A stretch of 37,387 bases of DNA, taken from IMG/VR virus record IMGVR_UViG_3300021233_000222, positions 1 through 37,387 of that record; one strand, given 5' to 3'. Made by a program: the position numbers and the translations under genes. Source of the stretch: a virus. The notes beneath the pieces are model-generated. The model was given only the letters and a program-made list of their open reading frames with translations. It was not told the DNA's origin and did no database searches. How positions within the stretch are numbered: the first letter of the stretch is position 1; each line of letters begins with the position of its first letter. Below, in pieces: positions 1,782-36,189 of this stretch.

Positions 1782-3398
1782 TCAGTACGACCCTCCGGAT
1801 CGTACTGATAAAATCTCTCCCTCGACGTTGGTGACGCCGCTCAGGCAGAAGTAGCGCAGGACGTCGATCGGGTCTTTGAGCGCTCCGGTCTTGCCGTCCG
1901 CTCCGGTCCATTCCTTGAGCGCATGGATGGTGTTCTTGCAATCCTCCGCCACATAGAGCCTCGGCTGGTTCATGGCATCGACCGGCTTTCCCGTGTCGTA
2001 GTGAAGCCAGTCGTTGATCAGATCAATCCCCTCGTCGATATTGGTGCCGGGGGTGGCAACAAAGTTCAGGCCGATCTCGGCACATTCCTCGATCAGGGTC
2101 GTTGCGCTCTCCTTGGCGACCGTCGCGGCATTGCCATAGCGGCTGTCCATCCAGCGCTCAAAGACTTGCTCTCCTTTCTCCAGGCGCTCGATCTCCTCCT
2201 TGTAGCGCTCCAGCCCGAAGCCAAAGCTCTTCTGCGCGGGACCCGGCCTGCCATCGGCTTTCTTCCCATCGGGCTCGGCCCATGGACCCGCATATCCCAC
2301 GCCGTCGATGTAGTCGCTCCCAGGCCACTCCCGATAGACGAAGGCCCTGCCGGTCTCATCGAGCAGGAGCCAGATCATGAACCAGTTCCTCCCCGAGCAG
2401 GGATCGACAAACTGATACCGTGTCCCCTTCTCCGGGATGCGGGAGGATGGGATGACATGCACCTTGTCGTTGAAGAGCGGGAATCTCCCGGCAATCGCCT
2501 TGGTCGGGACTCCGTAGGCACGGCAAAGAATCTCAGGGCGTGATGCCTTCTCCAGCTCCTCCCTCATGCGGGTCCATCCTGCCCAGGGATTGTTCTTGGT
2601 ATGGAAGTAGAGCACGCTCGCCTTGCGCCGGACGCACCGCTGGATCACCGGCACCTTCTCATGGGAGACGATGAGGCGCTCTCCCTCCACCTCGCCATAG
2701 ATCGGAAGCAGCTCGGCATCGGTATCGTCCACCGTCTCGGCTCCGGTGAGGTAGTCTTTGACCGTGGCGCTGTATCCCTCGACCGGAGTGAAGGAGACGA
2801 GCAGCTTGCCGTTCCGATCCAGCAGGCGGTAGCGCATGGTCGTGAGCCAATCGAGCGGCACCAGCTCGTCGCACCAGATGATGTCCAGCTCGCCGCCCTC
2901 AATGGTGGAGACATCCTGGGCGTAGTTGCGGAACCAGCACTGAGAGCCATTCGGGAGGACAAAGGCATTCTCCGAGAAACCGTTCTTCTGCGAGTAAGAG
3001 ATATTGGTCACTTGGTTCTTCTTCGCGGTCTTCCACTCCAGCGGCATCATGTTCCAGATGTAGGGCTGCTGCATCTCGACGGAGTTGGGGGCCGTCGTCT
3101 GAAAGCACCAGGCTCGTGCTCTCGGCTTCTCCACCAAGGCACGCATCACCTCGCGTGCTGCCCAGGAGGATTTCCCCGAGCGGTTGCCCCCCATGACGAG
3201 GACTTCACGATCCCGCTCCAGGATCTCGCTGGCACGCTTCCAATGATCCGGAACGTAGCCGTGACGGAAGGGGTCCTCGCGCTCCTTGCGGATCAGCTCC
3301 TCGCGGAGCTGTGCCGCTGCCAGCCACTTGTCGGGAGGCAGCGTGGCCGGGGGGATCGGTAGCGCCGGATGAGGCGTGGGTGTCCAGGATTTAGACAT
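1782..3398 (-). CDS. terL: Terminase large subunit (DNA packaging ATPase and nuclease)
   Basis: This is the packaging motor that cuts and translocates DNA into the procapsid. The ATPase half shows a Walker A variant GGNRSGKS (residues 70-77), Walker B LDIIWCDE (171-178) and the coupling motif SFTP (202-205). The C-terminal half fits the RNase H-like nuclease: a first acidic strand at QFVDP (about 328-332) and later acidic positions including RWMDSRYG and INDWLHYD. The 538-residue length is usual. The start is an ATG preceded by a pyrimidine-rich heptamer array and no Shine-Dalgarno. A conserved 53-residue phage gene lies just upstream. No small terminase was identified with confidence. Confidence 0.93.
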   Translation of the reverse strand: MSKSWTPTPHPALPIPPATLPPDKWLAAAQLREELIRKEREDPFRHGYVPDHWKRASEILERDREVLVMGGNRSGKSSWAAREVMRALVEKPRARAWCFQTTAPNSVEMQQPYIWNMMPLEWKTAKKNQVTNISYSQKNGFSENAFVLPNGSQCWFRNYAQDVSTIEGGELDIIWCDELVPLDWLTTMRYRLLDRNGKLLVSFTPVEGYSATVKDYLTGAETVDDTDAELLPIYGEVEGERLIVSHEKVPVIQRCVRRKASVLYFHTKNNPWAGWTRMREELEKASRPEILCRAYGVPTKAIAGRFPLFNDKVHVIPSSRIPEKGTRYQFVDPCSGRNWFMIWLLLDETGRAFVYREWPGSDYIDGVGYAGPWAEPDGKKADGRPGPAQKSFGFGLERYKEEIERLEKGEQVFERWMDSRYGNAATVAKESATTLIEECAEIGLNFVATPGTNIDEGIDLINDWLHYDTGKPVDAMNQPRLYVAEDCKNTIHALKEWTGADGKTGALKDPIDVLRYFCLSGVTNVEGEILSVRSGGSY

Positions 3399-5105: not shown

Positions 5106-6479
5106 CTAGTATTTCTGACGTTTTTCTTTGTTGTTGGTGTAGAGGGTTTCCGTCGTGTTGTTGAACCGGGTGTATTCGGCCTCAAATTTGAGGTTCACCG
5201 TACCGACCGGGCCGTTGCGCTGCTTGGCGACGATCAGCTCGACGCTGCCGTCATCCAGGCTATTCCCATCGCTGTCCTTCATCCCCTTCTTGGGACGATG
5301 CAGCATCACCACGATGTCAGCATCCTGCTCGATCTGGCCGCTCTCACGGAGGTCGGCCAGCTTGGGGGCGCTTCTTTCCTCGGCATTGCGGCCAAGCTGG
5401 GTGGCCGCGATGACCGGCACTCCGAGTTCCTTGGCCGTGGCCTTGAGCGCCATGCTGATCTCGGCCACCTCGTAGGCGCGGTTCTCCTGGGCTCGCTTGC
5501 TCGTGCTCCTCATAAGCTGGAGGTAGTCCACGACGATGCACTTGACCCCATGCTTGACGACGGCTCGCCGCGCACGGCCGCGAAAGTCGAAGATATTCAG
5601 GCTCGGGGTCTCGTCGATATGCAGCGGGAGCTGGCTGATGCTCGATGCGGCCACCGGCATGCGCTGCATGTCGGTACGGTTCATAAATCCGTCCCTCACT
5701 CGCTTGAGATCGAGGGGCATCTCGGAGCAGATCATCCGGCTGGCGAGATCAACTCCCGTCATTTCTAACGAGAATATGGCCACGGGAATGCCATTCTGCG
5801 CCATCGAGGTAGCCCACTGGACGGATAGCGCACTCTTTCCCATGCCGGGACGACCAGCCACCACGACCATCTGGCCGGGACGCAGGCCCCCCGTCATGCG
5901 GTCGAAATCCGTGGTCATCGTTGCAAGGCCGACGCATTTCCCCCTGTTTTTGTAGGTGCTCTCGATTCCCTCGATGGCCTCCATGACGTAGCTCTGGATG
6001 GGCCTGAGCGATGTCTCGGCCTTGGTGCCTCCCCTGAGCTGGAGCCATCGGGCCTCCACCTCATTAAGCAGGACATGGGGCTCGCTCACGCTCTCCACCG
6101 CCACCCTGGCCGTCTCATTGGCAGCACGCAGGATGGAGCGCCGCATGGCTTTATCCCGGAGGATGTCGGCATAGGCCATGACGTTGCCAGCGGTAGGCAG
6201 GAAGATCGCCACCTCTGTCAGGTAGGCGGGATTCTCCTTGATGACGGCCTGATCCCGCAGCGCATCGGAGAGGCTAATCAGGTCGATGGGCTTGCGGTCC
6301 ATGAAGCGCTGCTTGAGGCACTCCCAGATCACCATGTGCGTGGGATCAAAGAAGTGATCCCCGGTGATGTCCCCAAGCTCCTCCATGCACTCGGGCTGGA
6401 GCATGACGGAGCAGAGGACGCCGCGCTCGGCATCTCCATTCCACGGGACGCCTCCCTTGGGTGTTGGCTCGTTTAGCAT
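5106..6479 (-). CDS. dnaB: Replicative DNA helicase, DnaB family
   Basis: This is a hexameric 5'-3' helicase for phage DNA replication. The N-terminal helical domain (about residues 12-120) contains the usual AERGVL, FFDPTH and FLPTAGNV segments. The RecA-like domain has Walker A GRPGMGKS (209-216), Walker B CIVVDYLQLM (314-323), the ATQL/DLRESGQIEQDAD motif (359-388) and a C-terminal KQRNGP motif whose R421 fits the arginine finger. The length of 457 residues is normal. No helicase loader or primase was found in the window, so the phage may use host factors or the upstream DUF1376 protein. Confidence 0.95.
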   Translation of the reverse strand: MLNEPTPKGGVPWNGDAERGVLCSVMLQPECMEELGDITGDHFFDPTHMVIWECLKQRFMDRKPIDLISLSDALRDQAVIKENPAYLTEVAIFLPTAGNVMAYADILRDKAMRRSILRAANETARVAVESVSEPHVLLNEVEARWLQLRGGTKAETSLRPIQSYVMEAIEGIESTYKNRGKCVGLATMTTDFDRMTGGLRPGQMVVVAGRPGMGKSALSVQWATSMAQNGIPVAIFSLEMTGVDLASRMICSEMPLDLKRVRDGFMNRTDMQRMPVAASSISQLPLHIDETPSLNIFDFRGRARRAVVKHGVKCIVVDYLQLMRSTSKRAQENRAYEVAEISMALKATAKELGVPVIAATQLGRNAEERSAPKLADLRESGQIEQDADIVVMLHRPKKGMKDSDGNSLDDGSVELIVAKQRNGPVGTVNLKFEAEYTRFNNTTETLYTNNKEKRQKY

Positions 6480-9926: not shown

Positions 9927-10141
9927 TATCGTGGCGAGGTGACGGTGGACGCATACTTGGGCGCATGAACCCCTTCTTTTTTCAGAACGTCGAGCATGAG
10001 GAACCAGAGCTGCGTCCAGCGCAGAGCCGGGATGATGTTGCGCTGCTCGATCCCCCTGCCGGTTACGTCAATATGGAGGTAGCCATTGATGCTCCCGCTT
10101 GTGCGGTAGCAGTAGGCCATGATGTCGGATAGAAGCCTCAT
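9926..10141 (-). CDS. Hypothetical phage protein (71 aa)
   Basis: A short protein with IMAYCYRTSGSINGYLHIDVTGRG and then ALRWTQLWFLMLDVLKKEG. The two halves look like a beta part and a helix. There is no recognised domain. It shares one base with the DUF1376 start and overlaps the upstream stop as ATGA, so it belongs to the operon. Confidence 0.55.
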   Translation of the reverse strand: MRLLSDIMAYCYRTSGSINGYLHIDVTGRGIEQRNIIPALRWTQLWFLMLDVLKKEGVHAPKYASTVTSPR

Positions 10142-10503
10142 TTCTGGAATCGGAGCCAGCGGCCCTCCTCGACGATGAAGAGCTTCCCGTCTCCATCTGG
10201 CTCTGCCTCGATGTAGGTCTTGACCCGGAATGCCTGGGCATCCTTGCAGCCTACGTTCACAACATCCTCCTCGGGGCCATGCATACGGCGTGCCTGAAGG
10301 AGGTTCTTGTTCTTCCCGATCTTGGTGACATAGAGACGTACTCGGCCATTTGCGGACTCCATGGCTCCTGCCGCCTCGGGTAGCGGCTTTCCAATGGAGC
10401 CCTGCCCAGCGCCCCCCTTTTCTTTTTTAGAAGCGATCCCAGGAAGGATGCGATTGATGAGAGATGGTTTCTCTCCCGTGGTATTGGTTGGTGTAGTGCT
10501 CAT
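10138..10503 (-). CDS. Hypothetical phage protein (121 aa)
   Basis: I place the start at the ATG at 10501-10503 (MSTTPTNTTG). A TTG ten codons upstream would overlap the previous stop and is an alternative. The first half is basic and Gly/Lys-rich. The second half has beta-rich segments (GRVRLYVTKIGKNKNLLQARRMHG, GDGKLFIVEEGRWLRF). There is no family match. The position between an HTH protein and replication genes suggests an early function. Confidence 0.55.
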   Translation of the reverse strand: MSTTPTNTTGEKPSLINRILPGIASKKEKGGAGQGSIGKPLPEAAGAMESANGRVRLYVTKIGKNKNLLQARRMHGPEEDVVNVGCKDAQAFRVKTYIEAEPDGDGKLFIVEEGRWLRFQK

Positions 10504-10529
10504 TTTAGTGAAAATTTTCTGCGAATGGA

Positions 10530-11453
10530 TCAATGCCCCCCGGACACCCGGCGTGAATTTGCGGACCCCCTCCCCCCCTCTTTCGGCGTCCGTCTTGTCT
10601 CGGCGCTCTCTCCGGTTGTCTCGTCGCCATCGACTCGCTGGCGGGTCTCCTGAGTGTCGCGGATGGCCTCCTGCACAGCCCCAAAACCTTCCGGAAGTGT
10701 AGCAGGATGCGTAGCAGACTCGGCATCTACAGAGACGGAGCCTGTCAAATCATCTGATTGCTCATCAGGTGTTGCCTGATTCTCGTGGTTTCCAGTGAGA
10801 TCACCGGCAGTGGAAGGCAACGCCAGGACAAGCCCGGCATCTGCTCCGGCCTGCACCGCGATCGCGGCGGCAGCGCCAGCCTCGTCACCCTTTTGGGCGA
10901 CTTCTTCCCCTTCTAAACCGGTAGCCGGGACAAGCTCCGCCTCGATCACCCTCCCGGAGATCATCCGAAGGTAATCGTCATGGGTCGGGCCGCTTTCGAT
11001 GGTCTCAATGCGGGAGGTTGCGCCACCGGCAAGCAGCTCCGCTTTCTCTACGGCGATGCCAAGGGCAATCGGCAGGGATTGAATCGGGATCTTATCCACT
11101 TCATCCAGGAGACGATCAGCGGCGAGCCGTCCGAAGGTACGCAGAACGGAAACAGTTCTTTCTTTAAGTGTGGCTACAGCCTGAGACTCCCGAGCCATGA
11201 CGGCGGCAACCGTGTGATGACTCACCCGGTAGGCACGGCAGAGTTGCCGAACCCCGAGACCTTGCCCGAGCCCGTCCACAATAGCCCGGTAGATCGTCGG
11301 TCGTGACTCCATGAGGCGCTCGGCAGTGAACTCCCCGCGGCGCTCCATCTCCTGATTTCCTTCCTCCTCCGTTGATATCAAAAAAAGAGAAGGGGCGGCG
11401 GCCTCATCGGCGGCCACCTGATCAAGGAGTGAATGCTTACTGCGCTTTGCCAT
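10530..11453 (-). CDS. HTH-containing phage DNA-binding protein (307 aa)
   Basis: The start at 11451-11453 follows the upstream stop with one base between. Residues 66-86 (LGVRQLCRAYRVSHHTVAAV) form a clear helix-turn-helix of the homeodomain-like type, with further helices to about residue 150. The C-terminal 150 residues are low-complexity, acidic and Ala/Gly/Thr-rich. An HTH with helical bundle followed by a disordered tail could be a small terminase, an initiator or a regulator; I cannot choose between them. A segment encoding part of the tail (10698-10735) resembles the arm repeats around the att site. Confidence 0.6.
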   Translation of the reverse strand: MAKRSKHSLLDQVAADEAAAPSLFLISTEEEGNQEMERRGEFTAERLMESRPTIYRAIVDGLGQGLGVRQLCRAYRVSHHTVAAVMARESQAVATLKERTVSVLRTFGRLAADRLLDEVDKIPIQSLPIALGIAVEKAELLAGGATSRIETIESGPTHDDYLRMISGRVIEAELVPATGLEGEEVAQKGDEAGAAAAIAVQAGADAGLVLALPSTAGDLTGNHENQATPDEQSDDLTGSVSVDAESATHPATLPEGFGAVQEAIRDTQETRQRVDGDETTGESAETRRTPKEGGRGSANSRRVSGGH

Positions 11454-11454
11454 G

Positions 11455-11652
11455 TCAGCCAACGAGACGCCGAGCAATGAACTCATCCAGGGCCGCTTCC
11501 GAGATCCGGCGGTCCTTGCCGGATAGCCATAGGACTTTCCCAAGCTCCCCTTTCCGTATGTAGTTGGCCAGCGTGTTCAAATGGATATTGAGCCGGTCAC
11601 AGACTTCCCGACTAGTCAGCCAACGGGGAGGTGTTGAATTCTTGTCGCTCAT
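11455..11652 (-). CDS. MerR-type HTH protein, excisionase-like (65 aa)
   Basis: Residues 12-34 (LTSREVCDRLNIHLNTLANYI) and the wing with GKVLWLSGKDRRIS match the HTH_17/excisionase family of small winged-helix DNA-binding proteins. Such proteins serve as recombination directionality factors or early regulators. The start at 11650-11652 overlaps the previous stop as ATGA. Its place in the early operon, divergent from the integrase side, fits an excisionase, but no experiment supports that here. Confidence 0.65.
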   Translation of the reverse strand: MSDKNSTPPRWLTSREVCDRLNIHLNTLANYIRKGELGKVLWLSGKDRRISEAALDEFIARRLVG

Positions 11653-11870
11653 GCTTTGACGGCCCAGCGGCAGCACTCCCGGAAGACTTCACGAGCCTTC
11701 AACGGATCTTCCGTGCAGGTCTGCATCTTCCCATTCATTTCGACCCTATAAAAAAAAGAAACGCCGGGGTTCATGGCGAGAAGCCAAACGGGCTTATGGC
11801 GAGCAAGTGTCACCCGCGTTTTCATTGTCGGCCTGACCTCCAGGCGAACCAGTTCACCGGCAGTAGTCAT
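11649..11870 (-). CDS. Hypothetical phage protein (73 aa)
   Basis: A small basic protein with segments VRLEVRPTMKTRVTLARHKPVW and FFYRVEMNGKMQTC, then AREVFRECCRWAVKA. It looks like a short beta sheet followed by a helix with a Cys pair. No family is recognised. ATGA overlaps on both sides tie it to the RHH-led operon. Confidence 0.5.
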   Translation of the reverse strand: MTTAGELVRLEVRPTMKTRVTLARHKPVWLLAMNPGVSFFYRVEMNGKMQTCTEDPLKAREVFRECCRWAVKA

Positions 11871-12001
11871 TTCCTAATCCTCCGGTTAGCCGTTCCATAA
11901 AAAAAACGGGCGGCGGCGGAAGAGATCGGGCCGGAGTAGATGGCGACAAAACCAATGACGCCCACAGCCAGAAGATTGAAGATGAAGGCGTGCGCGCTCA
12001 T
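11867..12001 (-). CDS. Small single-pass membrane protein (44 aa)
   Basis: The ATG at 11999-12001 overlaps the RHH gene stop as ATGA, and its TGA overlaps the next ATG the same way; such double coupling is unlikely by chance. Residues 5-25 (AFIFNLLAVGVIGFVAIYSG) form one hydrophobic membrane segment, followed by a basic tail (TANRRIRK). The role is unknown. As a membrane peptide made immediately after a regulator it could act in superinfection control or host membrane modulation, but this is conjecture. Confidence 0.65.
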   Translation of the reverse strand: MSAHAFIFNLLAVGVIGFVAIYSGPISSAAARFFYGTANRRIRK

Positions 12002-12186
12002 TCGCCTGCCTCCTCGTGGGTCGGATGCAATTCGCTTGTGCCACATTTACCATCCAAAAAATCACGGATTGCAATGCGAGCAAGGTCAGATGGTTTCAGC
12101 CAGTGTTTATCGGCTTCGGCGCGTAGTCTTGCTTTTAGTTCATTCGGCATTCTCATGGTCAACGTGGTGTCGAGTTGATTTTGCAT
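11998..12186 (-). CDS. Ribbon-helix-helix regulator heading the leftward operon (62 aa)
   Basis: The sequence DTTLTMRMPNELKARLRAEADKHWLKPSDLARIAIRDFLDG is a standard RHH (Arc/CopG/MetJ) fold: a short strand, then two helices with the KPSD turn. I chose the ATG at 12184-12186. A GTG at 12211-12213 would add nine residues and would place one operator inside the gene. The 62-residue length is typical of small RHH repressors. It is divergent from another RHH gene at 12277, and TTGTGCCACAT sites lie between and inside them. It probably represses one or both promoters. Confidence 0.75.
   Translation of the reverse strand: MQNQLDTTLTMRMPNELKARLRAEADKHWLKPSDLARIAIRDFLDGKCGTSELHPTHEEAGE
12036..12046 (+). 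promoter_or_regulatory. Operator-like site inside the RHH gene (third copy of TTGTGCCACAT)
   Basis: This copy lies within the RHH coding region. With the 12203-12215 site it shares 13 bp (GCTTGTGCCACAT). The core TGTG-C-CACA is an inverted repeat. Its centre is 169 bp from the middle copy, close to sixteen helical turns. Confidence 0.55.
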
Positions 12187-12276
12187 GCGCTGTTTGTAGC
12201 TTGCTTGTGCCACATGTCAAACACAAATAAGCAAAAATCTTATAGCGCTGAATTTTCATTGTGCCACATTGACAGT
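12187..12276. promoter_or_regulatory. Divergent promoter and operator region between two RHH genes
   Basis: Two copies of TTGTGCCACAT lie at 12205-12215 and 12259-12269, 54 bp apart (about five turns). Each holds the symmetric core TGTG-C-CACA. On the minus strand a -10-like TATAAG (complement of 12238-12243) has an operator where its -35 would be, and a TTGACA (complement of 12215-12220) lies beside the other operator. I infer that one or both RHH proteins bind here and control both directions. This is likely the lysis/lysogeny or early control switch; the promoters themselves are weakly supported. Confidence 0.6.
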
Positions 12277-12528
12277 ATGAAAAGGGAAAGCACCTTCAAC
12301 TTTAGACTCCCGAAAGAATTAAAAGCCCGACTAGACGCCTTTTGCGCGGCCAGGGGCATGAGCAAAGCGGACCTCGCCGTAACAGCAATAACCGAATTTC
12401 TCGATTCCGTTCAAAACCTTGAGAGAGCCCACTTGATAAGCCGGATCTATCCCGTGCAGGATGTCGAAGCACTCCGAGCCGCTGAAAAGCCTCACCAGCA
12501 CAGCCCGAGACGGTCCGCTGGCGCATAG
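12277..12528 (+). CDS. Ribbon-helix-helix regulator, rightward (83 aa)
   Basis: The N-terminal 45 residues are an RHH domain: strand STFNFRLP, helix KELKARLDAFCAARG, turn MSKAD and helix LAVTAITEFLDSVQ. The start is the ATG at 12277, just after an operator-like site; a frame open further upstream would read through both operators and is rejected. The last 38 residues are unlike the RHH fold and may be an effector or tail. It resembles the divergent RHH protein (both contain LPKELKARL or MPNELKARL), suggesting an old duplication. Confidence 0.75.
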   Translation: MKRESTFNFRLPKELKARLDAFCAARGMSKADLAVTAITEFLDSVQNLERAHLISRIYPVQDVEALRAAEKPHQHSPRRSAGA

Positions 12529-12562
12529 ATCCAACAGACCCCAAGACCATCCATCTTTTGCA

Positions 12563-12877
12563 ATGAACCGAATATCATACATAGTCGGCCCACTACTAGC
12601 AACGGCACTTGTCGCCTGTAAGCCGTCGCCCCGTTATACACTTACCGAGGCCACTGATCCAAAGACCGGAACACGCACTGCCTACCGACTCAACACCGAG
12701 ACAGGCGCATCCGAATCCCTGCAATGGGTAGAACCATCACCCGGACGCACTCTCCGATTTTGGGAACCGATCCACGACCAGCGGACAACGCTAGAAGTCT
12801 TAAAAGCCTACAAGAACGCCGACGCGGCCAACGCCAAGCAGGCCGCAGAGATCAAGGCCGGAACCTTCACATACTGA
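12563..12877 (+). CDS. Phage-encoded lipoprotein (104 aa)
   Basis: The start MNRISYIVGPLLATALVAC is a lipoprotein signal peptide: one basic residue, a hydrophobic stretch and a lipobox LVAC with the acylated Cys at residue 19. The mature part is short and soluble, with TDPKTGTRTAYRLNTETGAS and a C-terminal Ala/Lys helix. It sits in the rightward lysogeny module after the RHH gene. Lipoproteins in such places often block superinfection or alter the host surface, which I infer by position. An upstream in-frame ATG at 12461 lacks the signal peptide logic. Confidence 0.7.
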   Translation: MNRISYIVGPLLATALVACKPSPRYTLTEATDPKTGTRTAYRLNTETGASESLQWVEPSPGRTLRFWEPIHDQRTTLEVLKAYKNADAANAKQAAEIKAGTFTY

Positions 12878-12878
12878 C

Positions 12879-13151
12879 ATGAAAAAACCCGAACTGAACG
12901 GCCATGGTCCCGGCAAAGGGAAGCACTCCATCAGCTCCACCGTCACGCTCGAGGTCCTTGAGGCCCTCGACTACCTCGCGCACCGCTCCGGGCTCACCCG
13001 CGGCGGATACGTTGCGGCGGCAGTCAATGCGGCCGTGCTCTCCGGCTCCATCTTCCCGCGGGCGACGGCCGCCGTTCCACTACCCGCAGAGACCGCAAGA
13101 AAAGCCCGGCAGTCCGTTACCAGGACAAGACGCGAAAGCTCGCGGAGCTAG
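12879..13151 (+). CDS. Third ribbon-helix-helix-like protein (90 aa)
   Basis: After a Gly/Lys-rich N-terminus, residues 17-53 (SISSTVTLEVLEALDYL, AHRSGLTRGGYVAAAVNAAV) read as an RHH: strand, helix, LTRG turn, helix. The C-terminus is basic and Ser/Arg-rich (TRTRRESSRS). It begins two bases after the lipoprotein stop. It may be a DNA-binding regulator of this module or an antitoxin-like protein, but there is no toxin partner beside it. Confidence 0.55.
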   Translation: MKKPELNGHGPGKGKHSISSTVTLEVLEALDYLAHRSGLTRGGYVAAAVNAAVLSGSIFPRATAAVPLPAETARKARQSVTRTRRESSRS

Positions 13152-13198
13152 ATTTTAAGCGGCGCAAAAGCCAATTTCAATTTTCTGAAATTTTTCCA

Positions 13199-13240
13199 TT
13201 GACTTCCCACGAGAACCCGTGAGAGATTAAGCGCCGAACA
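13199..13240 (+). promoter_or_regulatory. Possible promoter of the ArdC operon
   Basis: A TTGACT hexamer at 13199-13204 is followed, 18-19 bp on, by GAGATTAA as a weak -10. Between them CACG and CGTG form a short inverted repeat. The 131-bp gap before ArdC otherwise contains AT-rich sequence with a TTTCA/TGAAA inverted repeat and no gene. Confidence 0.35.
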
Positions 13241-13282
13241 ACAAACCGGAAGAGCCAACCGACCAAACGGGCACAGACAACA

Positions 13283-14155
13283 ATGCAAACGCAAACCAAC
13301 ACCCCGGCAGCCTACCAAGTCATCACCGACCGACTCGTTGCCATGCTGGAGGCAGGCACGGCACCTTGGAAGAAATCATGGGCAGGCCGTTCCGGGTTTC
13401 CCAAAAACCTGATCAGCAAGAAAGCCTACTCCGGCATCAATACATGGATGCTGCACACCTCCGATTATGCCAGCAGCTACTTCCTCACCTTCAACCAGGC
13501 AAAGGAACTCGGCGGCACCGTCCGGAAGGGGGAGAAAGGGCTTCCCGTTGTCTTCACAAAGCAGCTTCCCGTGAAATCTGTTGAGGTTCAAACCGACAAG
13601 GGAACAGAGACCATGATCGACGGGAAGAGCGGCGGCAGGATGCTTCGCTATTACACCGTATTCAACGTCGAGCAGTGCGAAGGGATCGAGGCCCCGGATT
13701 CTGGCCAGCGCTACCAGCATGACCCCATCGACACCGCCGAGAAGATTGTTTCCGGAATGCCTAACCGGCCGCAAATCGAGCACAGAGGAGGCCGTGCCTG
13801 CTATGCCCCTGAGTCCGATATTGTGACGATGCCGGAGGCCGACCGCTTCACCTCGCGGCCGGGCTACTACTCCACATTATTCCACGAACTAGCACACAGC
13901 ACCGGGCACGGGTCCCGGCTGGATCGCCAGATTTCAAATGATTTCGGGTCAAACCCCTATGCGAAAGAGGAATTGGTTGCGGAGATGGCAAGCGCCTATC
14001 TATGCGCCCAGGCAGGAATTGAGCAAAGCACCATCGAAAACCAGGCCGCATATCTGAACGGATGGATACAGGCACTCAAAGGTGACGCGAGGCTGGCCGT
14101 CCAGGCCGCAAGCGCCGCACAAAAGGCCGCCAACTACATCCTCGCCGCCGCTTAA
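13283..14155 (+). CDS. ardC: ArdC-like antirestriction protein (290 aa)
   Basis: The N-terminal half fits the ArdC single-stranded DNA-binding domain: PWKKSWAG, NLISKKAYSGINTWML, FLTFNQAKELGGTVRKGEKG and RYYTVFNVEQC. The C-terminal half is a zincin-like metallopeptidase with HELAHSTGH (residues 201-209) and EELVAEMASAYL (229-240), which supplies the third metal ligand. ArdC proteins protect incoming DNA from restriction and are known on plasmids and phages. The 290-residue length is usual. The start is preceded by an A/C-rich leader with no Shine-Dalgarno. It heads a rightward string of small overlapping genes. Confidence 0.92.
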   Translation: MQTQTNTPAAYQVITDRLVAMLEAGTAPWKKSWAGRSGFPKNLISKKAYSGINTWMLHTSDYASSYFLTFNQAKELGGTVRKGEKGLPVVFTKQLPVKSVEVQTDKGTETMIDGKSGGRMLRYYTVFNVEQCEGIEAPDSGQRYQHDPIDTAEKIVSGMPNRPQIEHRGGRACYAPESDIVTMPEADRFTSRPGYYSTLFHELAHSTGHGSRLDRQISNDFGSNPYAKEELVAEMASAYLCAQAGIEQSTIENQAAYLNGWIQALKGDARLAVQAASAAQKAANYILAAA

Positions 14156-15114: not shown

Positions 15115-15272
15115 GCCACCAAGACGCCAAGACAATCGCCGCCCAGGTCATCCGCTCCCTGCTGGCAAAATATCCTGCCGGGATGGTCGTGATGATCATC
15201 CGAGCACTGACCAGAATCCAGCGCAGCACCCCCGACTTGACCATCTACAAAGCCCCGCCACCGCGGGACTAA
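15111..15272 (+). CDS. Small hypothetical protein (53 aa)
   Basis: The ATG overlaps the preceding stop as ATGA. The peptide contains a helix (AKTIAAQVIRSLLAKYP), a hydrophobic core (GMVVMIIRALTRI) and a KAPPPRD end. It is too short to classify. It is the last gene before the att region. Confidence 0.5.
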   Translation: MSHQDAKTIAAQVIRSLLAKYPAGMVVMIIRALTRIQRSTPDLTIYKAPPPRD

Positions 15273-15296
15273 TACCGGCTTCGCAAGCCTCGAAAA

Positions 15297-15520
15297 GGTG
15301 TAGCAAAACGCGTATCAAACGACTTCTACAGAGAGGAAAAGATGATTACGAATGAGATGCTCTACCGACTGAGCTAAAGCGGCGTTACTCTGTAAAATGT
15401 CAAAATCTTCTCACTTATCTCTGTAGCTGCTACAAAATATGCTTCACAAGACTCCACAACGGGCAATATCAACCGAGCCGCTTGACGTGTAGCAAAACGC
15501 GTAGCAGAGTGTAGCAGAGA
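15297..15520. other. attP: Phage attachment region (attP) with arm-type repeats around a tRNA fragment
   Basis: A 17-bp direct repeat GTGTAGCAAAACGCGTA occurs at 15298-15314 and 15487-15503, on both sides of the tRNA-Thr fragment. Further TGTAGCA-like motifs are at 15509-15515, at 15501 (GTAGCA), and as an inverted pair TGTAG/CTACA at 15422-15434. CTACAGAGAGG is at 15326. The integrase starts ten bases to the right. Arm sites on both sides of a core are what a tyrosine integrase needs in attP; attL or attR would have an arm on one side only. No other gene is seen in this 257-bp gap. Confidence 0.65.
15345..15383 (-). other. 5' half of a tRNA-Thr(CGT) gene, probable att core
   Basis: Read on the minus strand from 15383: acceptor 5' strand GCCGCTT, TA, D-stem GCTC with its pairing GAGC, then anticodon stem TCTCA and loop TTCGTAA with anticodon CGT. 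After the loop the expected TGAGA is absent and no 3' half follows, so it cannot make a tRNA. It is best read as the identity block shared with a host tRNA-Thr gene, with exchange in or near the anticodon loop. Confidence 0.8.
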
Positions 15521-15529
15521 CACGCCCAC

Positions 15530-16774
15530 ATGAACGCCGAAAACACTACTGTCAGAACTGAGGTGATTGTTACCCATCGGGGGAAACGCTACACGCTTTG
15601 GATGCGCGGTGACAACTTCTATCTCCGGCTTAGAAAGCAAGGCCGACAGATATGGAAGACCCTCGGCACCTCCCTCAAGGAGCAGGCCGTTAAGCAGGCC
15701 AAGACTGAGTTGGATAAACTGGAGAAGAATGACTGGCAGCCAGCGCCCAAGAAACCCGAGGCGATAAAGGGCATGGCTAGCGTGGGCGATCTTGTTGAGC
15801 GCTATCAGGCGGCAGACCGCGACATGGATCGCGGGACTAAGCTGAACTACATCGCCGCCTTAAAGACCCTCCTGAGAGTTGTTACCGGCAAGGAAGACCC
15901 ACTTACGCTACCGGCTACCATCCTTTCAGAAGAGACCCTAGACGCCTACATCAAAGCCGAGCGAGGCAAGGGCAGGCCCGATCACAGCATCCATGCCAGC
16001 CTGACGCAGGCCAGGTGCATCGTCAGCCCAAAAGTAATGTCTCTCTACAAGGGCCTAATCCTTCCAAACCTCGACGGATTTAGGGCCAAGCGGGACTTCA
16101 AGGGAGATCGAGACGCTGGATTCGTCAAGTTCAGCAGAGAGGAGGCGGCGGCTATCGAAACCCGAGCAGCGGAGCTACTGGCAGCAAAGTCGCCAGTATG
16201 GATTGCATTTGCCTTCATGGCTCGCCTGGCCATGAGAAACATTGACGTGTACCGCGCCAAGTGGAGCGACATCGTGGAGGGGGTTGAGTACCACGATGGG
16301 AAACCCGTTGAGAAGCGATGGATTCGCGTTAAAGCCAACTATATGGAAGCCCTCGCCGCTACCGTTGAGATCGAGGATGACCTATGGAAAAGCCTTCAGC
16401 TTTACAAGCCATCCACCTGCACCCATCCACCGACCATTGGCGACAAAGGGGAGCCGATCCCTTGTGAACTCTGCGCCCATATCATTCCAGCCAAGACAAA
16501 CAAACAGAGGGAGGACATCTGTTATCGTGATATATGCGACCGGTTCCGCGACGTCATTGTTGGCAGGAGAAAGATCGCCTACGAGCTGCGGCGCTGGGCC
16601 GGATCTATTGTTTATACCAAGCATGGAAGCGATGCATCACGGCAAACACTTCGCCACAAGAGCGTTGTGACTGCCGAGCGGTACTACGCAGCCGAGTTAC
16701 GCGGAGCGAAAAGTGCTTCTTCTACAGATGTCGCAGACATCTACGGACTCACCACACAACCCACCACCCAATGA
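15530..16774 (+). CDS. int: Tyrosine integrase (414 aa)
   Basis: A site-specific recombinase for phage integration at tRNA-Thr. The N-terminal 70 residues (RGKRYTLWMRGDNFYLRLRK) act as an arm-binding-like domain; a SAM-like core-binding domain follows (about 85-190). Catalytic candidates are R236 (AMRN), K268, R354 in YELRR (His of the usual HxxR is Tyr here), H376 (LRHKS) and Y385 or Y386 (ERYY). Between about 295 and 320 an insertion holds C297, C312, C315 and H317, suggesting a small metal site. The start lies immediately right of the attP arms, and the stop overlaps the next gene. Confidence 0.92.
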   Translation: MNAENTTVRTEVIVTHRGKRYTLWMRGDNFYLRLRKQGRQIWKTLGTSLKEQAVKQAKTELDKLEKNDWQPAPKKPEAIKGMASVGDLVERYQAADRDMDRGTKLNYIAALKTLLRVVTGKEDPLTLPATILSEETLDAYIKAERGKGRPDHSIHASLTQARCIVSPKVMSLYKGLILPNLDGFRAKRDFKGDRDAGFVKFSREEAAAIETRAAELLAAKSPVWIAFAFMARLAMRNIDVYRAKWSDIVEGVEYHDGKPVEKRWIRVKANYMEALAATVEIEDDLWKSLQLYKPSTCTHPPTIGDKGEPIPCELCAHIIPAKTNKQREDICYRDICDRFRDVIVGRRKIAYELRRWAGSIVYTKHGSDASRQTLRHKSVVTAERYYAAELRGAKSASSTDVADIYGLTTQPTTQ

Positions 16775-32577: not shown

Positions 32578-32646
32578 TGAAAGTTTGAAGGTGGGAAGGT
32601 GAAAAGGTTTGAGACTTTTTACTTTGCTACTTTCATACTTTTTACC
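32578..32646. repeat. Composite intergenic element, copy 2
   Basis: It lies between the portal stop and the fibre-like gene start and even supplies the portal stop TAA. It contains the shared core GTTTGAGACTTTTTAC at 32608-32623 with flanking purine and pyrimidine parts in the mRNA. Confidence 0.85.
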
Positions 32647-34699
32647 CTTGTCCCGGCCCTAGCTGGGACAAGGCTGGCACCGCGCCCATGCGGCCGATCT
32701 GTGCGTTTTGCTGCTGGGTGAGCTGGAACTGGAAGCTCTGCACGCGGGCGTCGATCATCTTCCGGAAGATCTCATCCTGCTGGTAGCGCTGGGCGACGGC
32801 GGGATTTGCCTGGATGGTCTGCTGGAGGACCTGCAAGCGGACCTGCGGATTGCCTCCCTCCTTGAGAGGGGGCTCGGCTCCGGCCGCGATCTTCGTAAAT
32901 TGCACCTGCTCATCCTCGGCCTCGGCTGCGGCTGCCACTCCGGCGTCACGCACGAGCGACTCTCCCAGGACGGGATCGACGGCCGACATGATGAACTTCA
33001 CCAGCCCTGCCCGGTCGATGACTCCCGCCACATCGAGCGGGATGGCCACCTTAGCGATGTAGTCGAGCTTCTTGCCAAGGAACTCATTATCGAGATCCCG
33101 GACATCGAAATCGACTTGGAGATCGTACTGCCCCTGCACCTCCTCGCGGGTAAGCTGAAACTTTCCTGGCAGCATCCCGACGATGCGCTGCACCTGGGCG
33201 TCGGTGAGGTACTGCTGCATGAGCTGGAGCGTCTGCGCGATGGCCAGCTTCATGTCGGTGAGGAAGCTATCCACGAGATCCTGCTGGGCCAGCATGGTCC
33301 GAGCCGGTGCGATGGCAGCAGTGGCTCGGGAGAAATACTCATCCACATCTCCCCGTGTGCTCTGCTCGACCTCGATGGTCCCCTTGTCAAATGGAGGAGG
33401 CTCCATCCAGCCAAACTCTCCCGGCCTGCGCTCGGGGATCTGGCTGCCGGGACCGAAGACCAGCTCTAGCTTGCCACGGTTGGCCGGGACGCGGACGGGG
33501 GGAAGGATGGCGATGGAGGCGCGGTCGGCGCGGTAGTCGCGCTGGGTCTTGATCTCGCCCTGGCTGGTGTGGACCAGCTCGGGGATTCCGCGGGACTCCA
33601 GGAGATTGCGGCTGGCACGCTCGCGGGGAAGCTCGATGAAGGGGAACTGGCCGTGCTCGTAGGGGCTGATCTCGTGCTTGGCGACGAGATCGGTGATCGA
33701 GGTATTGATGACGGTGCACTCGACGCGGGTAGCTCCCTTGTCGTGGACCTTGCGATAGACATGATAGACTTCGATCAGGTCGCGGTCGTTGTTGGCCAGG
33801 TGCTCGTTGTTACGAAGGATGTTGCGGTTGATGCGCTGGGTCATCCCCTTCTGCTTGACGGCTCGCTCGATCCAGTCGGCGTCGTAGTCCTGTGTCGTCC
33901 CCCGCTCGCGCAGCTCATCCTCGGTGATCAGCTCCCGGCGTGCTACCCATGGTGCCCTCTGGATCGACCAGGTAGAGGCCGGGAACAGGATGTCCTCCAG
34001 CGGCTCCAGCGCTACCCACTCGGGCTTGCTCTCAAAGATGTAGGGATTCTCGTAGGTGAAGATTCCCTTCTCTCGGAGGGCTCGGACAGCGGCCACGGTG
34101 CCAGCCTTCTCAGCAAGCATCCCAAGCATAGCCTGGGCCCCTTCCTCCTGAAGCGGATCGAGAATTGCCTCGACCAGCGCTGCGGCGGCACCGTCTCCCT
34201 GGAGGGCGACATTCTGGATCTCCTCCATGGTGATCGACTTCTCCTCGACTCGGGTGGTGGTCCTCCAGAAGACCCCGAGGAAGGAGAGCCCGAAGGTCTC
34301 GCGGATCTGGAGCGCCAGCTCCACCTCGCGCCTGAGATCATCGAGGCAGTGGACCTTCATCATCCAGTTGAGAGCCGTCTGGACGGCCTGCTTGATGATC
34401 GAGTCGCTGGTCTCGACCGGCTGCACCTGCATCCGGGAGGAGAAGAAGGCCCGCTTAAGTAGGCGGACATTCTCATTGATCAGGGTGTCGGCCAGCCTAA
34501 TCCTGGTATCGCTGGCACCTTCCCATGGCCAAGGGCGCTTCCCAAGAGACCCCTGGTGCTTGCGTCCATCCTCGCTCTGGCCTGCCCACAGGCAGAATCG
34601 AGTGTTGAAATTATCGGTCTTCCTCCCGAAGTAGTAGCTGGCATCACTCTCGGCCTGTGACAGCTCGGAGATGAGGGAGGAAATCTTGGTGCGGTCCAT
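32642..34699 (-). CDS. Portal protein, podovirus type (685 aa)
   Basis: It forms the ring through which DNA passes at the capsid vertex. Features include a helical start (KISSLISELSQAESDASYY), WPWEGASDTRIRLADTLINENV, a long central part with LIEVYHVYRKV and FPFIELPRERASRNLLESRG, then FGWMEPPPFDKG and the C-terminal Gln-rich helix (FQFQLTQQQNAQIGRM). Length and position between capsid and tail genes fit a podovirus portal. Composite repeat elements flank it on both sides. Confidence 0.85.
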   Translation of the reverse strand: MDRTKISSLISELSQAESDASYYFGRKTDNFNTRFCLWAGQSEDGRKHQGSLGKRPWPWEGASDTRIRLADTLINENVRLLKRAFFSSRMQVQPVETSDSIIKQAVQTALNWMMKVHCLDDLRREVELALQIRETFGLSFLGVFWRTTTRVEEKSITMEEIQNVALQGDGAAAALVEAILDPLQEEGAQAMLGMLAEKAGTVAAVRALREKGIFTYENPYIFESKPEWVALEPLEDILFPASTWSIQRAPWVARRELITEDELRERGTTQDYDADWIERAVKQKGMTQRINRNILRNNEHLANNDRDLIEVYHVYRKVHDKGATRVECTVINTSITDLVAKHEISPYEHGQFPFIELPRERASRNLLESRGIPELVHTSQGEIKTQRDYRADRASIAILPPVRVPANRGKLELVFGPGSQIPERRPGEFGWMEPPPFDKGTIEVEQSTRGDVDEYFSRATAAIAPARTMLAQQDLVDSFLTDMKLAIAQTLQLMQQYLTDAQVQRIVGMLPGKFQLTREEVQGQYDLQVDFDVRDLDNEFLGKKLDYIAKVAIPLDVAGVIDRAGLVKFIMSAVDPVLGESLVRDAGVAAAAEAEDEQVQFTKIAAGAEPPLKEGGNPQVRLQVLQQTIQANPAVAQRYQQDEIFRKMIDARVQSFQFQLTQQQNAQIGRMGAVPALSQLGPGQG

Positions 34700-34702
34700 G
34701 GA

Positions 34703-34776
34703 AAACAGTGGGAAAGTGGAAAGGTGGGAAGGTGGGAAGGTTTGAGACTTTTTACTTTTCTACTTTTTACCTTTTA
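34703..34776. repeat. Composite intergenic element, copy 3
   Basis: It lies between the 107-residue gene stop and the portal start. Its core GTTTGAGACTTTTTAC is at 34740-34755, followed by repeated GTGGGAAG and AAGTAAAAAG-type units of 7 to 8 bp. The most expanded of the three copies. Confidence 0.85.
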
Positions 34777-34780
34777 CCAA

Positions 34781-35104
34781 TCACCTCGTGATGCGGATCT
34801 TGCGCTCGGCCTTGGGTGCGGCGCAGTGGGGGTTGCGACGGAGGAAGTCGGCTCGGAAGGATTTGTCCTGCCAGCATCCGGGCTCTTTCCAGTTCCAGAA
34901 GTAGAAGGCATCGGCATCCACACTCATGGTGTGCTGTCCGATCCCCTCCACCAGGGCGCTCTCAAGTCGGGAGTTGGCCTCGGCCACCTTGCGCTGGCGG
35001 ATCTCAGCCATGACGGCCGATGCGTGCCATCCACGGAATAGCTCGCCCTTGATCAGGTCGAGCATCTCGGGATCGTCGATCCCTATGTTTTCATCGGTCA
35101 GCAT
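34781..35104 (-). CDS. Hypothetical protein between capsid and portal (107 aa)
   Basis: The sequence contains DPEMLDLIKGELFRGWHASAV, a helix AEIRQRKVAEANSRLESALV, then DADAFYFWNWKEPGCWQDKSF and a basic tail. It may be a head-associated protein because it lies between capsid and portal. AGGGGA directly before the ATG could act as a close-spaced ribosome binding site. No family is recognised. Confidence 0.6.
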   Translation of the reverse strand: MLTDENIGIDDPEMLDLIKGELFRGWHASAVMAEIRQRKVAEANSRLESALVEGIGQHTMSVDADAFYFWNWKEPGCWQDKSFRADFLRRNPHCAAPKAERKIRITR

Positions 35105-35124
35105 TCCCCTGTGTGATCTGGCTG

Positions 35125-35154
35125 GGTGCCTCCCCCCATGACAGGAGAGGCACC
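35125..35154 (-). terminator. Hairpin downstream of the capsid gene
   Basis: GGTGCCTC and GAGGCACC form a perfect 8-bp stem with a 14-base loop, 19 bases after the capsid stop. No T-run follows on the minus strand, so it may limit read-through or protect the capsid mRNA 3' end instead of acting as a strict terminator. Confidence 0.5.
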
Positions 35155-35172
35155 GGTGTCAAACCACCCGAA

Positions 35173-36189
35173 TTAGGAAGCGGTCGAAGCGATCTTGCCG
35201 AAGCCCTTGGGGCTGTGGACGACGAGACCGGCGATGGCGTCGATGAGGCCACGGGGTCCACCGCCACGATCCTCAAGCTCGCGGAAGGCAGGGCGGCGGC
35301 CGTAGCGCACCTCGACCATCTCGGGGTCGATGATGTATCCACGGCGGCTCTGCACGGCGGCGAGACCGTCCTGGGCGAGCAGGAGGGAGGGGAGGAGCTG
35401 GAGGCTCCCGAAGTCACCCTCGAACATGTCGATGGTCGCGGTGATCTTCTTCTCGGCGGCACCCTGCGTGTAGGTCTTCACGTTGAGGGCCACGTTGGTC
35501 GATCCGGCCTGGGTGCGGGTGAACTCCGTGAAGCGGCGCTTCAGGGTAGGTCCGCAAAGCAGGACGAGGTTCTTGACCGTGCCGGTCTGCTCGTAGATCG
35601 ACTGGAGGAGGTTCTGGATGGAACCCTCGGTGATCGAGTCCGTCGCGGTCGAGGTGATCGAGCCAGCCGGGGTGCGGTAGTTGCTGTCCACGGGCAGGTC
35701 GGTCTGAGCCGCGGAGGCGATCCAGGAGCCGAGACCGCGGGTGCGGTACGGGTTGGAACCGCTCTGCTGCTGGCTGTCGCGGTCGGAGCAGAAGGCGGCC
35801 TCGATGTCGCGGCCGATCTCCTCGATGCTCTTGGCGGCACCACGGGCCATCTCCTTCTTGCGGCCGACACCGGCGACATCGGAGATGTTCGCGGCGAAGT
35901 CGTCCACCATGATGGAGCGGCGGAACTTCTGGCAGCGGCCGGAGAGCTTCGCACGCTGGGCGGCGGGGCTGTCGTAGGTGGAAACGTCGTCGCTGGCGAG
36001 CACGCCGTCGAAGCTGGGGGTGTTGTACCCGTCAGCCTGCCAGGAGTGGACGTCAGGGTTGACCAGTTCCGCACCCTTCTTGGCGAGCGCCAGGAGGGGC
36101 TTGGACTTGGCATCCACGACGGCGATGAGATCGCTCAGGTCCTCGCGGAGGCCTTTGCTGATCTGGTCATTGATGGTGAGTAGAGGCAT
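35173..36189 (-). CDS. Major capsid protein, DUF5309 family (338 aa)
   Basis: The protein matches DUF5309, a phage HK97-fold capsid family: LREDLSDLIAVVDAKSKPLLALA at the start, SWQADGY, CQKFRRSIMVDDFAANISD and KSIEEIGRDIEAAFCSD in the middle, and CGPTLKRRFTEFTR with a C-terminal MVEVRYGRRPAFRELEDRGGG. Codon use is GC-rich and strongly biased, as expected for an abundant protein. The leader before the ATG is A/C-rich (GACAACACACAACGACA). Confidence 0.9.
   Translation of the reverse strand: MPLLTINDQISKGLREDLSDLIAVVDAKSKPLLALAKKGAELVNPDVHSWQADGYNTPSFDGVLASDDVSTYDSPAAQRAKLSGRCQKFRRSIMVDDFAANISDVAGVGRKKEMARGAAKSIEEIGRDIEAAFCSDRDSQQQSGSNPYRTRGLGSWIASAAQTDLPVDSNYRTPAGSITSTATDSITEGSIQNLLQSIYEQTGTVKNLVLLCGPTLKRRFTEFTRTQAGSTNVALNVKTYTQGAAEKKITATIDMFEGDFGSLQLLPSLLLAQDGLAAVQSRRGYIIDPEMVEVRYGRRPAFRELEDRGGGPRGLIDAIAGLVVHSPKGFGKIASTAS

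Follow-up and report, generated by a model that had tools for sequence, protein, structure and literature searches.

Probable attP of an uncultured Spartobacteria phage carrying the 5′ half of a host tRNA-Thr(CGT) gene

A 39-nt piece of a tRNA gene lies beside an integrase gene in the DNA of an uncultured virus. Does this piece mark the site at which the phage integrates, and which DNA would stand before the tRNA gene rebuilt by that integration? The window, that is, the whole stretch analyzed here (37,387 nt), comprises bases 1–37387 of the 38,947-base IMG/VR record IMGVR_UViG_3300021233_000222; the tRNA scans were confined to this window. The piece, GCCGCTTTAGCTCAGTCGGTAGAGCATCTCATTCGTAAT, lies on the minus strand at 15345–15383 (nt 1 of the tRNA at 15383, nt 39 at 15345) and is identical at 39/39 positions to nt 1–39 of the complete tRNA-Thr(CGT) genes of three MAGs. 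By our own arithmetic for random sequence, the chance expectation for an exact 39-nt match in 37 kb is about 1e-19. The initial annotation, made from the letters alone, had called the piece the 5′ half of a tRNA-Thr ending in the anticodon loop, and the exact match to the MAG genes confirms this. The anticodon loop TTCGTAA (nt 32–38) occupies 15346–15352 on the minus strand, with the anticodon CGT at 15348–15350. As expected for half a tRNA gene, ARAGORN and Rfam detect no complete tRNA in the window, Rfam giving zero matches of any kind, and probes for the tRNA 3′ half have no match in the window, so the site is not an attP of the conventional 3′-half type. We consider it very likely that 15298–15520 forms an intact attP, belonging to an uncultured temperate phage that infects Spartobacteria (Verrucomicrobiota) and integrates in tRNA-Thr(CGT) by means of the 5′ half.

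The genes around the core bear on the state of this DNA. To the left of the core lie the terminase large subunit (1782–3398), a DnaB-like helicase (5106–6479), a methyltransferase gene and an ArdC-type antirestriction protein (13283–14155), the last of which carries a zincin-like metallopeptidase domain. To the right, a virion structural protein, the portal and an SU10-type major head protein occupy 32642–36189. With the terminase gene at its left end and the portal and head genes at its right, the contig looks like a circular or permuted genome that has been cut open; no end overlap of at least 12 bases was found. Prophages are often binned as viral contigs, so the contig could also be an integrated copy in which the fragment is the attL or attR. 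This is extremely improbable, because the core has phage DNA and arm repeats to its left and right, with the terminase and helicase on one side and the portal and major head protein on the other, and the tRNA 3′ half is on neither side. Since phage genes flank it on both sides, the core reads as an attP rather than a prophage end, in agreement with the earlier proposal of a virion or circular form.

The sequences next to the core show further regularities. The TGTAGCA-type repeats said to flank the fragment are indeed present on both sides. Away from the integrase gene, an arm-type repeat pair at 15298–15317 (GATACGCGTTTTGCTACACC on the minus strand) matches 15487–15506 at 19/20 positions, and on the integrase side three TGTAGCA/CGTAGCA copies occupy 15487–15519. 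Related attP sites also contain such repeat pairs, spaced by about 12 nt, and we regard them as putative arms. Two AGAG boxes lie on the minus strand between the core and the integrase-side repeats. Box 2 (ACAGAGTAAC, 15384–15393) abuts the tRNA 5′ end and is kept in most related attP sites. Box 1 (CTACAGAGA, 15418–15426) is 31 nt from box 2, and its AGAG core shows no variation across a 12-row alignment. An inverted copy of the box (inverted repeat I3, 9/9) lies on the plus strand on the far side of the core at 15326–15334, and its CTCT-T is conserved in alignment A2. The AGAG boxes could be operator, promoter or recombination-factor sites.

The integrase gene does adjoin the fragment, as first noted. 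It starts at 15530, extends to 16774 on the plus strand, pointing away from the core, and encodes a divergent tyrosine recombinase of 414 aa. The window protein has no match in Pfam at a threshold of 0.001. In alignment A1, which comprises nine integrase sequences 33–66% identical to that of the window, 5/9 members match Phage_integrase in Pfam (E values up to 1 allowed, best 4.5e-9) and 8/9 match PHROG 1 (integrase). A search of PDB sequences with A1 gave zero matches, and the window integrase has zero relatives among 50,697 phage records. The AlphaFold model has a pLDDT of 77 and a pTM of only 0.49; its best fold match in the PDB is lambda integrase (E 9.5e-8), with a TM of 0.38–0.42 and a poor whole-length rmsd. 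The residues R236, R354, H376 and Y385/Y386 are invariant in A1, and we take them to fit the catalytic set of tyrosine recombinases. In this family the HxxR motif becomes YxxR, a tyrosine replacing the usual histidine, and Y351 and R354 are invariant in 9/9 members.

A genome collection of 84,980 species has the exact core at four places. At three of them (L020, L022 and L023) the tRNA-Thr(CGT) gene is complete and thus attB; the fourth (L021) is an attP with an integrase gene, from the same MAG as L022. In MAG G002, an intact attB contig and an intact attP contig are found together. L020 and L023 are labelled Spartobacteria, and L021 and L022 are labelled Proteobacteria; we take L022 to be from Spartobacteria too, since its neighborhood proteins are nearly the same as those of L020. 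The search for host genomes with a tRNA-Thr(CGT) gene beginning with this core, which the initial annotation had proposed, was therefore answered by complete genes in three Spartobacteria-type MAGs.

A junction is preserved in contig L012. Its positions 10115–13795 are 100% identical to phage contig L010 (3,681 nt), its positions 13756–13858 are 100% identical to host MAG contig L023 (103 nt), and the phage-like and host-like stretches overlap only in the 39-nt core plus one base. On these identities L012 is an attL, composed of host upstream DNA, the 5′ half and a phage arm, with the switch between phage and chromosome inside the core. The phage in L012 is a relative, with an integrase 67% identical to that of the window, so integration is seen directly for this relative and not for the window phage itself. 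A second attL lies in another MAG at a contig end (G637:C195, equal to L106/L115), with a host-type promoter before the 5′ half and a phage-type arm after it. The opposite junction was sought in three sets. IMG/VR has 0 matches to the whole core followed by host 3′ sequence; CAGAGTAAC followed by the core, with up to 2 mismatches, returns only the known attP contig L021 from 213 genomes of the order; and G637 contains no tRNA 3′ half. Thus, prophage junctions at tRNA-Thr(CGT), which the annotation had also suggested looking for, were found as attL in L012 and G637, but attR was not found.

Might the phage now integrate elsewhere, the fragment being left from a past integration or picked up as a piece of a tRNA? 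Fragments of tRNA do persist near integrases. We nevertheless judge this very unlikely; L012 is a fresh junction of a relative exactly at the core, which argues that the fragment is not the remnant of an older junction that the annotation had considered. A survey of relatives points the same way. The exact 39-nt core is present in 13 further IMG/VR contigs, and in ten of them an integrase related to that of the window adjoins the core. The remaining three (L012, L015 and L018) stop on the integrase side, L018 retaining a scrap of the integrase. A variant core pattern gave four more IMG/VR contigs. Three of them were known from the integrase search described below; the fourth, L130, was new and likewise includes the start of an integrase gene. 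As a route that avoids selection by the core, IMG/VR was scanned with alignment A1, and sixteen contigs were confirmed. The tRNA 5′ half is carried by 13/16 of these, ten already known as core-bearing and three new ones (L048, L049 and L050) with the same 5′ half changed only at nt 16–17 in the D loop. This retention, with conserved arms on both sides, speaks against a remnant. The other three (L051–L053), which are sister integrases, have no tRNA half, so that a change of target does happen within the clade, a point in favor of a remnant. Upstream of int, L051, L052 and L053 have in common GCTGAATGACATTTTGC between AGAG boxes, a 17-mer found in 8 IMG/VR stretches, which likely marks a different attachment target. 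In the tree, the twelve 5′-Thr integrases together with those of L051 and L052 form one clade with a support of 97/97. The integrases paired with the 5′ half diverge to 33% identity with that of the window. The integrases outside this clade (G580, G193, G131, G437 and G572) have long branches of uncertain order, and the integrase of G637 (L116) is also placed outside.

Taken together, the host attB, the junction of the relative, and the arms and phage genes on both sides support the intact attP claimed at the outset, and its conservation can be compared among sites. Across 16 attP sites, 37 of the 39 core positions are invariant, a figure biased by the fact that 12/16 rows are the window or exact-core finds (including L021) and that L130 was found by a near-exact pattern; the three rows found via the integrase agree with it. 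This set excludes L012 (the junction contig), L015 (truncated) and contigs that were duplicates or nearly identical to others. The invariance starts at tRNA nt 1 and ends at nt 39, with positions −1 and 40 varying. The commoner D-loop spelling, TT, is also found in host genes; genes matching the D-loop pattern occur in 10/384 genomes of the class, eight with TT and two with TC. Because the invariance begins at nt 1, about 30 nt past the exchange loop, we infer that the conservation of the core fits selection for the tRNA and not for recombination alone.

These observations can be assembled into a route of integration. The tyrosine integrase would act on the host tRNA-Thr(CGT) gene at its anticodon loop, with 15346–15352 as the putative 7-nt strand-exchange region; the exchange is placed at the anticodon loop because identity to attB stops at nt 39. 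In two related elements, G580 and G622, the shared stretch likewise ends at or adjoining nt 39. At the attL end, the host promoter and the host's own 5′ half would remain. At the integrase-side end (attR), the phage 5′ half would join the host 3′ half and give a full tRNA gene downstream of phage DNA, in the expected order of a phage arm ending CAGAGTAAC, the full core and GAGAGGGTC. Since attP carries the 5′ half, the rebuilt tRNA would lie next to phage, not bacterial, control DNA. A complete tRNA rebuilt at attR is not found in the data for this clade and is found in the related island G580.

Transcription of the rebuilt tRNA from phage DNA, as the annotation had anticipated, would follow from this geometry; the tRNA itself would presumably be made. 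The annotation had further placed a TTGACA 15 bases upstream of the tRNA. The motif is there, as the complement of 15398–15403 (minus strand), but its distance from the tRNA 5′ end is 14 bases. It does not hold up as the promoter of the rebuilt tRNA, because it is unconserved in related attP sites and, were it a −35 element, a −10 element at normal spacing would land inside the tRNA. A sigma-70 scan of 15250–15560 found no promoter. The host tRNA-Thr(CGT) genes have the promoter TTGCC(A/T)-N16-TANNNT 14–20 nt before the gene. It is recognized in 9/10 loci, eight by the strict pattern and L020 (TAGCGT) by score, with none in L113. Eight of the 10 scored host loci also went into the promoter matrix, so the host p-values are partly circular; the two loci outside the matrix have p 0.005 (L020) and 0.333 (L113). 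No convincing match to this host-type promoter was found in 15 phage arms; the two lowest p values are 0.045 (L018) and 0.075 (L011), and the window has 0.70.

The missing host-type promoter would suit a different account, in which the lysogen does not express the rebuilt tRNA gene and the 39 nt persist solely because recombination uses a long core, or because they are exchanged with the host copy. A tRNA-Thr(TGT)-like gene, whose product could read ACG by wobble, is present in each of the 4 host MAGs checked and also speaks for this account. We hold this account to be rather unlikely. The identity spans the acceptor stem to nt 1 and stops there, 30 nt beyond the exchange loop, whereas the split element in G622 needs a core of only about 15 nt. 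Furthermore, ACG is common in small, hand-picked gene samples, with 143/536 threonine codons in 19 window ORFs and 63/221 in 11 host ORFs. Given the TGT-like gene in all four MAGs and this share of ACG, the host could probably do without the CGT tRNA, though not without effect. A rebuilt tRNA that is made would also allow a regulatory role, which we put forward as an unlikely and speculative extension: in the lysogen, tRNA-Thr(CGT) may leave its constitutive host promoter and come under a region controlled by the phage, in which the conserved AGAG boxes serve as operators or promoters, and the level of this host tRNA would then be set by the prophage state.

Elements with related integrases use a variety of tRNA ends. 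A 45-kb island in tRNA-Lys(CTT) (G580:C58:43682-89137, L087–L089) follows the 5′-half mode and is a complete analogue, in which the integrase gene adjoins the 5′ end of a rebuilt tRNA-Lys(CTT) and the displaced 5′ fragment (41/42) lies 45.4 kb away. The 3′ half is used in tRNA-Thr(TGT) by G193 (54.5 kb), in tRNA-Val by G131 (40 kb) and in tRNA-Lys by G437 and G572. The distant relatives thus include both 5′ and 3′ modes. The cargo of the G580 island includes type I restriction, reverse transcriptase and metabolic genes and is not that of a typical prophage; its two ends also resemble each other over an upstream sequence of roughly 100 nt. In G622 (G622:C1:425677-435806, L095–L099 and L069), a tRNA-Thr(CGT) gene is apparently split at the anticodon loop by a 10-kb integrase element, with the 5′ part at 435806–435768 and the 3′ part near 425720–425677. 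Just within the element is a second tRNA-Thr(CGT) gene, complete but different. The arrangement resembles tRNA-dependent lysogeny, a mode described in actinobacteria, or an island version of it, here in a host outside that group. In G472 (G472:C4:205469-205556) and in L056, a tRNA-Ser(CGA) points its 5′ end toward a related integrase and is preceded by a host-type promoter TTGCCA-N16-TANTAT. No displaced tRNA-Ser(CGA) fragment was found in 44 kb of G472, and the tRNA-Ser(CGA) genes beside integrases in G472 and G510 (L055 and L056) are not claimed as 5′-type.

Integration by a 5′ fragment is already known and rare, and the phage described here is a further case. In the Islander data, as given in PMC4383910, a 5′ tDNA fragment is recorded for 159 islands and a 3′ fragment for 3760, so 5′ halves are less unheard-of than the annotation implied. 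Those 5′-fragment islands, as described there, likewise combine a tyrosine integrase, a tDNA end fragment at the anticodon site and an expected rebuilt tDNA. In the present clade, the adjoining gene is a tyrosine recombinase, the fragment equals the end of a host tRNA, and the junction lies inside the fragment in the relative. In comparison with the Islander islands, the present case is a free phage genome in Verrucomicrobiota, and a whole integrase clade keeps the 5′ half of one tRNA.

Other systems share single features with this site. For the pTN3-like integrases of Thermococcales, PMC8371274 and PMC5495485 describe an attB that is the 5′ half of a tRNA gene, with 41 bp shared and the rebuilt tRNA parted from its own promoter. 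In that archaeal plasmid system attP lies inside the integrase gene, which is split on integration, whereas here attP lies outside int (core end 15383, int start 15530), which stays whole, in a bacterial phage. The dusA-specific integrases, according to PMC4482086, also let the element replace the 5′ end of the target gene and so supply the promoter; there the target is a protein gene with putative −35 and −10 elements after integration, whereas here it is a tRNA gene and none are recognized. In tRNA-dependent lysogeny, as Guerrero-Bustamante and Hatfull (PMC10865867) present it, a tyrosine integrase also cuts a host tRNA gene whose function must persist, using a core of about 10 bp and a whole phage-borne replacement tRNA. 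The site here differs, with a 39-nt core and no tRNA gene in the window. Finally, the ordinary 3′-half attP shares the half-tRNA of about 40 nt, the anticodon-loop exchange and the arm repeats, but it keeps the host promoter on the rebuilt tRNA, whereas with the 5′ half the host promoter would be lost. Matches of tRNA-type att sites have linked a marine phage to Verrucomicrobia, as described in PMC3861242. Among open-licence papers, we found none on this phage group or on a 5′-half clade in Verrucomicrobia.

In summary, an exact junction assigns Spartobacteria hosts to this group of uncultured phages from freshwater, and the rare 5′-half mode is kept in one clade while its integrases diverge to about a third identity. 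The tRNA-Thr(CGT) that the proposed shift of control would affect serves roughly a quarter of the sampled threonine codons. Among relatives within this bacterial class, some use 5′ halves, some 3′ halves and, apparently, some a complete tRNA as a replacement. These mixed modes within one class would provide a setting in which to test who transcribes the rebuilt tRNA.
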